Shown here one piece after another: positions 49,361 through 53,652 of a DNA stretch of 64,000 nt. Position numbers and translations under genes: made by a program. Source of the stretch: Bacteroidia bacterium. GTDB lineage: Bacteria; Bacteroidota; Bacteroidia; Flavobacteriales_D; Cryomorphaceae. The DNA lies in assembly GCA_030427905.1 (NCBI GenBank), contig JAUICL010000001.1, forward strand, positions 620,001 through 684,000, written 5' to 3'. Position 1 is the first letter of the stretch; each line of letters starts with the position of its first letter. The notes under the pieces were generated by a model. That model had not been told where the DNA came from. It did no database searches and worked only from the letters and a program-made list of their open reading frames with translations.

Positions 49361-50863
49361 CTACTTCCTCACCACAAACTTCCCAACACCGACACCACTT
49401 TCCGATTCTACCCGCATCAAAAACATACCCGATGGAAGCGATGAGACATTAAGAGGCTTTGAACTTGGTTGGTTTTGTTTTTGGATCACCACCCGACCCT
49501 GGATATCGTGTATGGTCAAAGATTGAATAACCTGACCATGAAAATCACCACCAATTTGAATTTGATCTGAAGCAGGGTTGGGATAGATATGAAGCTCTTG
49601 AAGACCATTGGTTTCATCAACCCCAACGGTCATCATGTTGAGCTTGGCTAAGTTGGATGTAGGGTGCCCATCCCAACTGGAGAAATGTCCATCGAATATG
49701 ATATCGCCATCGTCCAGCATGATCATATTACCAACCCAGGGATCTTTGTCCCAACCACCCCACACGGCTTCATCGGGGCCCGTCAGACGCCAAAAGTCAT
49801 CAATCACGTCGCCATTATCGGCTATATGGACAATGCCCTTGCAAGAAAGTCCATCTGCTTCTACTATACCACCAGTAAATAAAAATGTGCCGTCAGGTAA
49901 TTCATGAATCTTTCTGGGCCATCCTTGTGTTGGAGCTGAAAACTCCTCATCCGTGATGATTTCTGGCTCTACAAAACTTTGGTCAACTTCACCATTGGAA
50001 AGTAAGCGAAGTACAAATTGGTTCTCTGGCATATCTGGAGCCTCAGCATAGCCAAGGTAGATCCAAATGCGGTCCTGACTATCTATGAGTTCGAGTACTA
50101 TCTCACCATCCGATGAAAGCGGGTTTTGAAAAGACTCTATGACATCGAAATTTTGATTCAGCTTAGCAATATGGTGATAGGTATGTCCATTGATTGTACC
50201 GAATCTCCCGGCGACAACAAGGTCACCATTAGACAGGGTATCCATAGTTAATATGTACTTATTATTCCACGCCTGACCCACAGGCGGCTGGAGAAAAATA
50301 GGTTCAAATGTTTCGTCCGGACTTCCGTCTGGATTGATTTTTATCAAGCCTGCTAATCCATCGGGAAGAGAAGCTAGCGTATCAACCGAAAACCGCCCGG
50401 CCCCAAGAAAATCACCATCTGGCCACTCCAAGAAGTCGTTCGCTAAATTCCAGCCTTGATCATACGGATCAAAAGAATAGTCAAAATAGTAGCCACTAAC
50501 ATCTTCAAAATCCTGATTTCTATATCTATATCCTCCTCCTAAATGCGATGTGATATAACCAGCTAAATATTTATGAAGAACAAGGCCAATAGACTCTCCC
50601 GGAGCCACAACTTCGAACCAATTGCCATCTAAATTAATCCTATTCGCAGCACCTCCAGGCACGCCCAGATTCTGCATAGGTCCCCAAATAAAGAGTGTGT
50701 TCTCCCCTTCAAGGAACATTCCATTGATCGACCCTCGATTGAGCTTCCCATCTGTCGAAAAAGACTCGTCGATCTCATAGTAGGTTTGGGCAGAAAGGCC
50801 AGATGCCACGCAGAGGGTAATGGCAGTCAGGCATTTTAAGAATATGTAGTGGAGTAGTCTCAT
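49361..50863 (-). CDS. Secreted delta-60-repeat protein with T9SS sorting domain
   Basis: A 500-residue protein with a signal peptide (about 1-25, ending LSAQ). Several beta-propeller-like delta-60 repeats of the form L-x-(D/N)-G-(D/S/T)-x-(D/L)-x-(S/T)-F follow (LINPDGSPDETF-like stretches near 170, LLSNGEVDQSF near 290). The C-terminal T9SS type A domain (about 425-500) contains LHIYPNPASDQIQ and MFLMRVESESG. It is probably surface-exposed. It is flanked on both sides by intergenic repeats. Confidence 0.88.
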   Translation of the reverse strand: MRLLHYIFLKCLTAITLCVASGLSAQTYYEIDESFSTDGKLNRGSINGMFLEGENTLFIWGPMQNLGVPGGAANRINLDGNWFEVVAPGESIGLVLHKYLAGYITSHLGGGYRYRNQDFEDVSGYYFDYSFDPYDQGWNLANDFLEWPDGDFLGAGRFSVDTLASLPDGLAGLIKINPDGSPDETFEPIFLQPPVGQAWNNKYILTMDTLSNGDLVVAGRFGTINGHTYHHIAKLNQNFDVIESFQNPLSSDGEIVLELIDSQDRIWIYLGYAEAPDMPENQFVLRLLSNGEVDQSFVEPEIITDEEFSAPTQGWPRKIHELPDGTFLFTGGIVEADGLSCKGIVHIADNGDVIDDFWRLTGPDEAVWGGWDKDPWVGNMIMLDDGDIIFDGHFSSWDGHPTSNLAKLNMMTVGVDETNGLQELHIYPNPASDQIQIGGDFHGQVIQSLTIHDIQGRVVIQKQNQPSSKPLNVSSLPSGMFLMRVESESGVGVGKFVVRK

Positions 50864-50944
50864 CTCGTGCTATGCTTTTCTAAAGATAGGGATTTTCCGG
50901 GTCTCGGTTCGCATTGGATTGACTGTATCAAGTATTCATTGACT

Positions 50945-50990
50945 GTACCAAGTATTAAGTATCAGGTACAAAGATGGCGGTCAATATTAA
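50945..50990. repeat. 46-bp exact direct repeat, copy A
   Basis: It begins gtaccaagtattaagtatca and ends gcggtcaatattaa, and is identical to 51171-51216. Internal GTACC/GGTAC and AAGTATTAAGTA dyads suggest a mobile palindromic unit. Confidence 0.85.
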
Positions 50991-51121: not shown

Positions 51122-51170
51122 GATATTCAAATGAACTAAATTAATCCGTTTGATTTAGGGAAGGAAAAAT

Positions 51171-51216
51171 GTACCAAGTATTAAGTATCAGGTACAAAGA
51201 TGGCGGTCAATATTAA
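51171..51216. repeat. 46-bp exact direct repeat, copy B
   Basis: Identical to 50945-50990. The two copies flank 180 bases that hold the nested inverted repeat at 51047-51121. The 453-base gap 50864-51316 contains no gene. Confidence 0.85.
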
Positions 51217-51316
51217 TCAGTGAAACACGCAATATCTTAATACTTTGTACTTAATACATAATACAACACAAACCCATTTATGGAATTCCCCTCATCATCG
51301 CATCCTATGGTAAAAA

Positions 51317-52036
51317 ATGATGAGAAATCTAATCCTTACCTGCCTGCTCGCAACTATTTACTTCATTTCATATGGACAGCAATTCGGAGAGATCCACGGT
51401 CAGCTTATCGACCACGATACCGGTGAGCCACTGCCATATGCTACGGTCTCGACCGAATACGGTGGGCAAACATTTGGAGATGTAACCAACGAAGACGGAC
51501 GATTTAAGTTGAAACCGCTTCGTCCCGGAAAGTATGATTTGAAATTTCGATATGTTGGTTACAACGAAAGAACCATTCAGGGCATTGAAGTGACACCGAA
51601 TAAAATCTACATGCTCGGAAAAGTCGAATTGGCCATGGACAATACCCTTCCACCTGTAGTCATTGAAGGGGTCACGCTTTTCGACAAAGACCGCCCCAAC
51701 GCCATGGTGGTAAAAGCCGCCGATTTGAAATTCAATCCGCTGATTAAGACTCCGGCGCGGCTGATTGGGAGCTTGACGCCTGAGCTGCGAACCGATGAGA
51801 GTGGCCAGTTTATCGTGCGTTCATCACGGCCGGGAACGTCTATCACATTAATAGATGGCATCAAGGTTACGGGTGGCATGGGAAACATTCCCGGGTCGGC
51901 GATCAAGACAATTACCGTTCATACAGGAGGCATTCCCGCTCAATACGGAGACCTGACCGGAGGTGTAGTGGTGATCGAAACTAAGGGATATTTTGATTAT
52001 TTCTATGAACACAACAGTCACATCAGTAGAAGATAA
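51317..52036 (+). CDS. Plug-only TonB-receptor-like protein with carboxypeptidase-regulatory domain
   Basis: A 239-residue protein: signal peptide (about 1-21), carboxypeptidase D regulatory-like domain (about 24-105; GEIHGQLIDHDTGEPLPYATV), then a plug-domain-like region (about 128-230; VRSSRPGTSITLIDGIKV and IPAQYGDLTGGVVVIETKG). The beta-barrel of TonB-dependent receptors is missing, and the frame stops cleanly one base before the TTG of an ECF sigma factor. It is either a dedicated signalling protein of the outer membrane or a truncated receptor. The tight operon with sigma and anti-sigma factors favours signalling, which is inference. Confidence 0.75.
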   Translation: MMRNLILTCLLATIYFISYGQQFGEIHGQLIDHDTGEPLPYATVSTEYGGQTFGDVTNEDGRFKLKPLRPGKYDLKFRYVGYNERTIQGIEVTPNKIYMLGKVELAMDNTLPPVVIEGVTLFDKDRPNAMVVKAADLKFNPLIKTPARLIGSLTPELRTDESGQFIVRSSRPGTSITLIDGIKVTGGMGNIPGSAIKTITVHTGGIPAQYGDLTGGVVVIETKGYFDYFYEHNSHISRR

Positions 52037-52600
52037 TTGCTACGCAAATGGACATATCGGCATAAAAGCGATGAAGAATTAGTCGGTTTATTTCTTTCTG
52101 ATCGCAGACGCATACTGGCGGAAATTTACCGCCGGTATGCCCATTTGTGCTACGGTGTTGCCCTAAAGTACCTTCAGGACCCCGTGGCAGCTCAGGATGC
52201 CGTAGCCGATATTTTTCTCAAGCTCGATCGAGACCTAGACAGGCACGAGATTCAAACGTTTAGAACCTGGTTTTACGTCCTTTCAAAGAATCATTGTCTG
52301 GGGGTAATCAGGAAGGAAAAGACCATCAAGAAGCACGAATCGAAGTGGGAGACCGAAAGGGATAGATCGCCATACGAAAGCGACATCATAGACGGACGGA
52401 TGTCCGCAATGGATGTGGCGCTGCAAGAGTTGAAACAGGCCCAGCGCGAGTGCATCAAGGCCTTTTACTTCGAGAAGCGGTCATATACGGAAATTGCCGA
52501 TAACCTGAACTTGTCTGTCAAGCAGGTGAAATCTCACCTTCAAAATGGAAAGCGCAATCTCCGCATGTCCATCGAATCAAAGCAAAGCTCAAAGCCATGA
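52037..52600 (+). CDS. ECF-type RNA polymerase sigma factor
   Basis: A 187-residue sigma-70 factor with only regions 2 (IYRRYAHLCYGVALKYLQ, DAVADIFLKL) and 4 (FYFEKRSYTEIADNLNLSVKQVKSHL). The frame has only a TTG start, directly after the stop of the plug-like gene. The anti-sigma-like gene downstream overlaps its end by 4 bases (ATGA). This is a translationally linked three-gene unit. Confidence 0.93.
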   Translation: MLRKWTYRHKSDEELVGLFLSDRRRILAEIYRRYAHLCYGVALKYLQDPVAAQDAVADIFLKLDRDLDRHEIQTFRTWFYVLSKNHCLGVIRKEKTIKKHESKWETERDRSPYESDIIDGRMSAMDVALQELKQAQRECIKAFYFEKRSYTEIADNLNLSVKQVKSHLQNGKRNLRMSIESKQSSKP

Positions 52601-53622
52601 TTAGTTCAAAAACCAATATAGAGAAGTATATCGCCGGAAAAATGTCGCGCACAGAGCGGGCCATTTTTGAGAAGGAGATGTCTTCAGACCCCTTTCTCAA
52701 AGATGCTGTAGATGGTTATCAAATTTTTCCCAAGCAAATTCACGCAGTGCCACAGTTTAAGGCTGGGAATGGAGTAGCTTGGGTAATTGGGATTGCGACT
52801 GTTTCAATTGCGCTTCTGTTTTCTTTTTGGCCAGAAGGGGACAGCCATTATGATGAAATAGCTGAGCCGATTGACAATCGTACCATGATGATTCCAGCCA
52901 AAACTGAAGCACCGAATGATCTACAATCAATCGAGCTCATTACGAGCATCGAACTAAACCGGGAAGTCAAGCCAGAGCCCATCCTGACTCAACGCAATGT
53001 GGAAGTGCTGTCTAACAGAACAGAATTAACTGCGACAACGCTGCCTCGGATAGAAGTAAAAGAGATATCGTTTCAACGGGTGGGGCAGATTCGTTCGAAT
53101 ATCAGAGTGGTTTACCTGCATAATTTGAAGCTGGCTTTGGCTCCTTCATTTGAAATTGATATTAAAGATCCCATTGCTGTGGGACAGGGATTGCCGGCTA
53201 GCCAGGAAAAGGTGTATCGGTCGCCTTCCAAACTATTTAAAAAGTACCAGAATCTGGAAAATGACGAACTGACTTATTTAGAACGGATGGAGCCGGTGTT
53301 GAAGGATGTTGAAAGTGGGCGATATGTTGCCGGCCTTACTCAAATTTCGCAATTGGACCACGAAAACGATGTAAACATTTTATTCTACTCCGGGTTATGT
53401 CACTTTCATATGGCGGAGTACGAAACTTCAATCGAATTATTTGAACGAAGTCGCGATCACCTGGTACAGTCTTTTTACGAAGAGGCTACTTGGTATCTAG
53501 CAGCTTCCTTGCTTAAAGTGGGTCGACAGGAAGAAGCCATTGATCTCTACAATGAGATACTGTTGCGAAATGGGCACTATAGCCCGATGGCTGCTTCGCG
53601 CCTAGCGCGGTTGACCCCATAG
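52597..53622 (+). CDS. Anti-sigma-like membrane protein with TPR domain
   Basis: A 341-residue protein. Its N-terminus IEKYIAGKMSRTERAIFEKE with DPFLKDAVDGYQ (about 8-42) matches the zinc-less anti-sigma domain of Bacteroidota. A single TM helix is at about 58-78. A periplasmic linker follows, then a C-terminal TPR region (about 240-341; YETSIELFERS and WYLAASLLKVGRQEEAIDLY). Topology suits a regulator that holds the sigma factor inside and binds partners outside, perhaps the plug-like protein. A terminator follows at 53624. Confidence 0.85.
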   Translation: MISSKTNIEKYIAGKMSRTERAIFEKEMSSDPFLKDAVDGYQIFPKQIHAVPQFKAGNGVAWVIGIATVSIALLFSFWPEGDSHYDEIAEPIDNRTMMIPAKTEAPNDLQSIELITSIELNREVKPEPILTQRNVEVLSNRTELTATTLPRIEVKEISFQRVGQIRSNIRVVYLHNLKLALAPSFEIDIKDPIAVGQGLPASQEKVYRSPSKLFKKYQNLENDELTYLERMEPVLKDVESGRYVAGLTQISQLDHENDVNILFYSGLCHFHMAEYETSIELFERSRDHLVQSFYEEATWYLAASLLKVGRQEEAIDLYNEILLRNGHYSPMAASRLARLTP

Positions 53623-53623
53623 G

Positions 53624-53652
53624 AAAAGGCCAGTGACGACTGGCCTTTTTTT
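53624..53652 (+). terminator. Terminator of the plug-ECF-anti-sigma operon
   Basis: aaaaggccag (53624-53633), loop tgacga, ctggcctttt (53640-53649) followed by T. Confidence 0.9.

Follow-up and report, generated by a model that had tools for sequence, protein, structure and literature searches.

A candidate sigma-controlled envelope module built around a detached receptor plug in Cryomorphaceae and their order

Introduction

TonB receptors are treated as one-piece machines in which a plug sits inside a barrel, and FecA/FecR/FecI signalling combines such a TonB-dependent receptor with an extracytoplasmic function (ECF) sigma factor and a regulator that has one transmembrane (TM) helix. Here, we analyse a three-gene operon in a 64,000-nucleotide (nt) stretch of DNA from a Bacteroidia bacterium of the Cryomorphaceae (contig JAUICL010000001.1, positions 620,001 to 684,000; G000:C5:620001-684000 in our numbering), hereafter the window. 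In this operon, the gene of a receptor plug that lacks a barrel is followed by the genes of an ECF sigma factor and of an anti-sigma-like protein ending in a TPR domain.

Three described systems are closest to parts of this locus. FecA is both the sensor and a sigma-dependent product of its system, as stated in an excerpt of PMC9249621. Class I anti-sigma domains (ASDI) are defined by an N-terminal three-helix bundle and a fourth helix before the TM segment, and do not require the Hx3Cx2C zinc signature (excerpt of PMC7406223). In Flavobacterium johnsoniae, a separate Plug protein closes the large barrel SprA (excerpts of PMC10994853 and PMC9127263).

Like FecA/FecR/FecI, the window operon joins an ECF sigma factor and a one-TM regulator to a receptor-derived protein whose gene the sigma factor is likely to control. 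Unlike FecA, the plug protein has neither barrel nor STN domain and consists of a CarboxypepD_reg domain (CTD) and a free plug. The regulator, for its part, has no FecR domain, carries a TPR sensor end and resembles class I, and a second exported protein belongs to the likely regulon. Our verdict is that the unit is a variant of ECF/anti-sigma envelope control built round free-standing plugs and not a member of the FecA/FecR/FecI type. We propose a sigma-controlled envelope module in which the sigma factor would drive its own synthesis, that of the plug, once detached from a receptor, and that of an exported protein named here CTD-445. From the sequences compared, we consider this proposal about as apt to be right as to be wrong. 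In searches of open-access literature, we recognised no description of a stand-alone CTD-plug protein or of this sigma regulon.

Results

The operon and its boundaries are made up of the following features, all on the forward (+) strand of the window.

51277..51304, +: predicted ECF-type promoter, a conserved motif with -35 box TTTATGGAAT at 51277-51286 and -10 box GCATC at 51300-51304
51317..52036, +: detached plug protein, 239 amino acids (aa), ATG start, with a second ATG at 51320
51392..51610, +: CarboxypepD_reg domain (CTD, transthyretin-like) of the plug protein, residues 26-98, from PF13620 and a fold match
51695..51991, +: plug domain of the plug protein, residues about 127-225, from PF07715 and a fold match
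52037..52600, +: ECF sigma factor, 187 aa, TTG start, from HMM matches and alignment of relatives
52597..53622, +: anti-sigma-like TPR protein, 341 aa, from alignment, model and fold match
52774..52824, +: predicted TM helix of the TPR protein, residues 60-76, a modelled helix taken as TM by sequence reading
53104..53139, +: beta-hairpin segment in the linker of the TPR protein, residues 170-181, with a motif like YLHNLKLA / Y..DLKVVDY
53275..53613, +: TPR domain of the anti-sigma-like protein, residues 227-339, from TPR-type models and the predicted fold
53624..53652, +: intrinsic-terminator-like hairpin, AAAAGGCCAG...CTGGCCTTTT followed by a T run, read from the sequence

The original prediction, made from the letters of the window, had described a receptor-like protein without barrel, a TTG-started ECF factor at its stop and an anti-sigma-like protein with a C-terminal TPR overlapping by four bases, and this gene order was confirmed. 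The 239-aa open reading frame (ORF) contains CTD and plug and no barrel detectable by Pfam; the sigma ORF (52037-52600) starts directly after the plug stop codon TAA (52034-52036); the ORF at 52597-53622 overlaps it by 4 nt (ATGA) and has a TPR fold at residues 227-339. The promoter (51277-51304) and the hairpin (53624-53652) form the boundaries of the three-gene unit. In the window, plug and sigma share a reading frame (TAA, followed by TTG), and a read-through fusion was rejected as meaningful because the two genes share one base in genome G002, and hence use different frames, and are separated in other genomes. The same operon is found in the Cryomorpha ignava record NZ_JAAGVY010000001.1 (L099) and in G004, a genome placed in the same family as that of the window.

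The short plug is conserved in many Flavobacteriales. Among 60 genomes of the family and order of the window genome, its own included, a short plug (frame of at most 310 aa) is present in 36, and the sigma gene lies directly downstream in 26 of these, which is above chance. The complete plug-sigma-TPR order occurs in 24 genomes, one of which (G002) has a damaged plug in two pieces. Elsewhere, the contig ends after sigma (G028), the unit is split over two contigs (G023), or two tandem plugs precede a sigma-TPR pair located ~3 kb further on (G017). In seven genomes of family f8, plug and sigma-TPR genes are on different contigs among other genes. G031, which counts among the 26, has a plug and a divergent sigma gene without TPR protein, and G054 has the plug alone. 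The TPR protein is found in 34 of the 60 genomes, all within the 36 with a short plug. Adjacent pairs of plug genes were seen at G017:C10 (L059), G358:C249, G459:C9 and G465:C6.

A full-length receptor at this place in relatives had been named beforehand as the sign of a simple truncation; the plug gene adjoining sigma is a full receptor in 0 of the 26 loci. In a maximum-likelihood tree of 75 sequences (midpoint root, damaged G002 copy left out, G017 as two rows), the 36 short plugs form one group (96/93), beside which stand 27 receptors of a ~1250-aa family (100/99), while 12 other receptors of the window genome fall apart from both. The dN/dS of the plug is 0.16 for the pair G025/G037 and 0.04 for G020/G042. 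Relatives and tree thus rule out a truncated or frameshifted longer receptor. The ~1250-aa family, the nearest tree group, shares with the short plugs the CTD and plug arrangement and 40% identity over residues 1-230, and differs by a full barrel (PF00593). The window genome encodes its own full-length cousin of ~1250 aa (G000:C5:105407-106102; L046 2357-6130), a receptor that is widespread among the searched genomes of the order. In a phylum sample of 296 genomes searched with the plug profile (E <= 1e-35, best 9 candidates per genome scored), short frames were found only in the three sampled genomes of this order; the other matches listed have frames of 895-1340 aa, except for a cut 599-aa frame in G014. 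The short plug is likely restricted to the order.

A search for the promoter of the sigma regulon, which the original prediction had suggested, yielded a conserved candidate. The ECF-like -35/-10 pair TTTATGGAAT-N13-GCATC is found upstream of plug operons, of unlinked plug genes and of unlinked sigma-TPR genes, and its occurrence at 51277-51304, which is intergenic, is the only perfect match in the window genome. A looser form, T(A/G)TGGA(A/T)-N12..18-CATC, was sought within 250 nt upstream of genes from the same sets in which the motif had been discovered. It precedes 31 of 36 plug genes that head an operon (of these 36, the 60 genomes supplied 29 and named records 7). It also stands upstream of 5 of 8 plug genes not linked to sigma and of 15 of 18 sigma-TPR operons that have no plug gene beside them. 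The background is 197 matches in 2,731,504 nt, both strands. Its spacer is 15 in 40 cases and 14 in 11. The misses include G054 and G031, both without TPR protein, as well as L071 and L086, which have near-matches by eye. The pattern TTTATGGAA-N14..15-CATC gave 98 matches in the 60 genomes versus 23 for the pattern read backwards; 40 of these 98 places were read, plus the loci given with the search.

The motif recurs before the gene of CTD-445, an exported protein of ~445 aa that is unlinked to the plug operon. Strong CTD-445 orthologs (E <= 1e-98) are present in exactly the same 34 of the 60 genomes as the TPR protein, and weaker matches (E 5e-52 to 8e-16) occur in other genomes of the set. 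When promoters were scored over 15 fixed positions, at least 13 matched before 23 of the 30 CTD-445 genes scored (from the 34 orthologs), none of which had been used in motif discovery, versus 2 of 404 control genes; one of these two is a CTD-VWA gene beside a sister sigma gene. The family profile of CTD-445 matches the CTD of SusC homologs in the PDB (E 4e-7), and the remainder of the protein gives nothing significant.

The link between regulator, site and targets was followed in 199 genomes of the order, in which the best 8-14 candidates per genome were scored for plug, TPR protein and CTD-445. The plug count comprises short frames among the matches listed to E 8e-63, plus G002, so that weak short plugs could be missed; the TPR count is 102 matching genomes minus G010 and G021, whose matches are TonB_C partners, and G449 (E 8e-13). 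The plug is present in at least 110 genomes, the TPR protein in 99 and CTD-445 in 109, with all three in 94, whereas 83 genomes have none of them. Co-occurrence of plug and CTD-445 was counted in 105 genomes (plug only in 5, CTD-445 only in 4), and that of plug and TPR protein in 96 (plug only in 14, TPR protein only in 3). The pairing of plug and CTD-445 is somewhat tighter than that of either with the TPR protein.

Of the 110 plug genomes, 14 have no recognisable TPR protein, and CTD-445 is retained in 11 of these 14. Promoters were read in 11 of the 14 (G385 and G388 lie outside these 11): in 10 of these 11, the site before the plug gene scores no better than background, with 8-10 of 15 positions, as do 371 of the 404 control genes. 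The looser search was also negative in G031. Before CTD-445, the score was likewise at background level in 8 of the 9 genomes tested that have no recognisable TPR protein. Where the TPR protein is missing, the site is thus missing too, and the target genes persist. This association is our principal argument for assigning the site to this sigma factor and for a separate function of the plug.

The plug protein is laid out as a signal peptide (by inspection), a transthyretin-like CTD, the plug and a short C-terminal helix. PF13620 (CarboxypepD_reg) matches with 64.6 bits (E 1.1e-17) and PF07715 (Plug) with 21.0 bits, just below its cut-off of 23.9. The protein ends ~14 residues past the plug domain, where the barrel of a receptor would start. 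By Pfam scan and ORF end, a beta-barrel is absent from the 239 aa, and the STN signalling domain is not among the seven families found in the scan (E <= 1). Assignment to the SusC/RagA-type receptors was rejected (TIGR04056, 39.6 bits vs a cut-off of 368.25). In an AlphaFold2 model built on family alignments (mean pLDDT 76.5, pTM 0.46), the segment 23-108 resembles a transthyretin-like domain (5aq0_B, Z 12.9; also 9hfj), and the modelled plug domain, residues 126-224, matches FyuA (4epa, Z 11.2, rmsd 2.2 A over 96 residues) and a SusC homolog (6z9a, Z 9.5, 97 residues). Positions around both the first plug helices and the TonB linker (PLID.DGG), near-invariant in the full-length family, are relaxed in short plugs. 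The latter retain YTGG.PA.YGD.TGG and have a conserved C-terminal end of their own, ETKSYFDLY, which is unlike the full-length family in the stretch that aligns. Relaxation of the TonB linker or TonB box is as expected if transport was lost. The earlier suggestion that the plug no longer transports is strengthened by this and by the missing barrel, and the detached plug has very probably lost transport.

The sigma factor matches Sigma70_r2 (40.2 bits), r4_2 (44.3 bits) and TIGR02937 (82.3 bits vs a cut-off of 42.9), and its TTG start agrees with the length of relatives. In a sigma tree from a short search, in which 48 of 111 inner branches are weak, plug-linked sigma factors cluster without forming one clade (7 changes over 32 rows). 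This tree left out the cut or divergent L049, L065, L070 and L092, the duplicates L098, L099 and L122, and L119, in which no sigma ORF was mapped.

The protein encoded with this sigma factor is a one-TM regulator, judging from a predicted helix and sequence reading. A Pfam scan of the window copy gives TPR-type models only, each below its cut-off; in relatives, TPR models reach E values as low as 1e-11. FecR is not among the seven Pfam families of the window protein, nor among the 25 of 55 families shown for 33 alignment members. The AlphaFold2 model on the family alignment (mean pLDDT 72.4, pTM 0.48) displays a four-helix N-terminal domain (helices 2-12, 18-30, 32-43 and 45-50), a likely TM helix at 60-76, a long disordered linker with a confidently modelled beta hairpin (mean pLDDT 92 in block 171-180) and a TPR fold at 227-339. 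The top folds for the TPR part are YbgF (2xev, Z 15.3), the IpgC chaperone (Z about 15) and Escherichia coli BamD (2yhc, Z 14.5). The predicted N-terminal three-helix bundle and fourth helix before one TM segment fit the ASDI layout, and the protein presumably inhibits the sigma factor as class I anti-sigmas do (excerpt of PMC7406223). It has no Hx3Cx2C zinc signature, which by reading is present in the partners L090, L123 and L146, and its TPR domain is placed behind the hairpin-containing linker.

Related sigma factors elsewhere in Bacteroidota are accompanied by the same motif. We compared the 80 loci most similar in sigma, whose record titles span Bacteroidota; a sigma ORF was mapped in 79. 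A CTD-VWA-YfbK_C gene lies divergently to sigma in 23 of these (e.g., L106, L107, L158 and L172). Of these 23 genes, none of which had served in motif discovery, 20 are preceded by a site that matches in 13 or more of the 15 motif positions, versus 2 of 249 controls. The plug gene is present in 10 of the 79 loci, with the motif in 8. These sister loci resemble the window unit in their related sigma, in the promoter motif and in its presence before an exported CTD protein; they differ by VWA-YfbK_C in place of the plug and, in several scanned partners, TonB_C in place of TPR. Among 16 anti-sigma-like partners scanned with Pfam, a C-terminal TonB_C reaches its cut-off in four (L090, L091, L101 and L107), preceded by a CTD in all but L091, and is weak in L094, L095 and L096. 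TPR models match in L093, L123, L146, L155 and L164. The zf-HC2 domain is above cut-off in L090, L146 and L160 and just under it in L123, so that L123 and L146 combine it with TPR; L160 has zf-HC2 alone, and no domain was found in L109, L126 and L150. The window unit looks like one form of a wider theme, in which a sigma factor with a single promoter sequence goes with an exported CTD protein, in the present case a detached plug.

Discussion

We propose the following mechanism. The TPR protein, a class I-like membrane anti-sigma, would sequester the ECF sigma factor as long as no signal reaches its own periplasmic part. Once released, the sigma factor would act at TTTATGGAAT-N13-GCATC, for which the conserved motifs and the cases of motif loss provide support, and raise its own synthesis and that of two exported proteins, plug and CTD-445, both of which it probably controls. 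Judging from the tree, the detached plug probably has a single origin, in the N-terminal portion of a ~1250-aa-type receptor. The plug fold would have been retained and the barrel and the constraint on the TonB linker lost, so that the detached plug could not transport. Plug and CTD-445 may act together in the periplasm or at the outer membrane, where the plug most likely docks on another protein, e.g., an outer-membrane barrel, and it may also feed back on the anti-sigma. The plug would be first of all a regulated product, with a job that does not need the anti-sigma.

Several observations weigh against this proposal. The co-occurrence figures are raw counts over related genomes, kinship being ignored, and absence of the TPR protein means absence at E <= 1e-12 among the best 10 candidates scored per genome. 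All 11 loss genomes belong to two genera (g12 and g174), and the motif losses may represent as few as two events. Moreover, several plug and CTD-445 matches in g174 span one or two stop codons, alongside open frames of near full length. These features of the loss genomes are why we hold our confidence at an even balance. G483, which has no recognisable TPR protein, keeps the motif (14/15 before plug, 12/15 before CTD-445). Of the CTD-445 genes, 7 of 30 score under 13, and the site of the window genome's copy (G000:C7:83866-85170) reaches 13/15 with two mismatches. The CTD is above the Pfam cut-off in two of five CTD-445 proteins, weak in a third and not found in the window genome's copy. In the sister loci without VWA or plug neighbour, the motif before sigma reaches 13 in only 10 of 46. 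Finally, the anti-sigma activity is read from gene order and fold.

The original prediction saw in this locus a trans-envelope signalling unit, either receptor-derived or reduced. Its description of a barrel-less, receptor-derived protein encoded in the same operon as an ECF sigma factor and an anti-sigma-like membrane protein stands; the plug as receptor of the unit is not supported in that form, since the promoter points to the plug as a regulon member with CTD-445, and the plug is found apart from sigma and TPR genes in the seven f8 genomes and without a recognisable TPR protein in 14 of 110. A sensing role is possible given the FecA precedent (excerpt of PMC9249621), and persistence of the plug without TPR protein argues that sensing is not its only role. 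In the fuller version of this alternative, which we hold to be doubtful, the free plug is the input and binds the periplasmic TPR domain or linker hairpin of the anti-sigma. An outer-membrane event would free or change the plug, comparable to the FecA signalling domain with FecR, and positive autoregulation would make more receptor. The tight operon, the co-inheritance of plug and TPR protein, and the predicted export or membrane location of all products except sigma are in line with it. So are the TonB_C ends of some sister anti-sigma-like proteins, by which receptor/TonB modules recur around this sigma group, and FecA itself, likewise sensor and sigma-dependent product (same excerpt). However, 11 of the 14 plug genomes without recognisable TPR protein maintain CTD-445, the plug is separated from its supposed partners in f8, and STN and FecR domains were not found in the scans.

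If the plug is an effector, as in our proposal, it may act in trans. It could be a soluble, regulated cork made with CTD-445 that docks on barrels and closes or gates them when sigma fires, the candidate barrels being the ~1250-aa cousin, plug-less barrels or a secretion barrel. This specific form is unlikely in our estimate, and would make outer-membrane plugging an inducible, diffusible activity and not a fixed receptor part. The YbgF, IpgC and BamD folds, together with recurrent targets that are exported by inspection, would also suit an envelope stress response. In that case, a YbgF/CpoB- and BamD-like TPR would sense unfolded outer-membrane protein segments, and plug and CTD-445 would be chaperone-like or blocking. 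Yet TPR folds are common and designed TPRs also reach Z about 14, and no chaperone or protease was noticed in the selection of motif-bearing genes read. We hold this reading to be decidedly unlikely. That the short plug is, or resembles, the Plug sealing SprA in the type IX secretion system (T9SS) is very unlikely. The Plug of F. johnsoniae (Fjoh_1759) is also a separate protein and seals a large outer-membrane barrel (excerpts of PMC10994853 and PMC9127263), and the product of the gene adjoining the operon carries a T9SS sorting tail. Nevertheless, no chain of that name is among the 60 PDB chains listed for the plug profile (E <= 10), the presence of this Plug in the library being unchecked, and the search of the 60 genomes detected no short plug in 24 of them. 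As for a truncated, decaying receptor beside an unrelated sigma operon, the visible damage of the G002 copy would agree with it, but the constant short length in 36 of 60 genomes, the single tree group, the dN/dS of 0.04-0.16 and the conserved end ETKSYFDLY leave it a negligible probability, and the relatives already refute it.

A plug living alone across much of an order, seemingly under its own sigma switch, contrasts with the plug-in-barrel receptor. The predicted regulon, the exact promoter and the regulator-loss genomes make its function directly testable, and the shared motif links many unstudied ECF sigma factors of Bacteroidota to exported CTD proteins.

A broad regulon in the window genome was considered and rejected: of 17 strict matches, the 16 outside the operon fall inside ORFs of at least 60 aa. 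Allowing up to two mismatches gave 15 matches, four of them intergenic, i.e., before the plug operon, the CTD-445 gene, L233 and L238. The last two, L233 beside a response-regulator-like ORF (by eye) and L238 with a 420-aa ORF, were not counted as targets. In genus g23, receptors of ~800 aa, TonB-dependent by eye, have the motif close upstream (L262 in G028, L272 in G034) and are a possible further regulon member. The motif also lies upstream of cysteine-rich protein starts in four genomes (L203 in G051, L242 in G036, L249 in G059 and L254 in G025), some of these proteins having by eye a TM segment and a CTD-like stretch. In the f8 sigma genes L080, L083, L085, L087 and L089, the -10 box is placed ~10 nt before the assumed start codon, which suggests nearly leaderless transcripts.

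Next to the operon and divergent from it, positions 49361-50863 (- strand) encode a 500-aa DUF5122 beta-propeller protein with a Por_Secre_tail, i.e., a T9SS substrate. In the interval between them, two copies of a ~47-base repeat (TGTACCAAGTATTAAGTATCAGGTACAAAGATGGCGGTCAATATTAA) precede the plug operon, at 50944-50990 and 51170-51216.

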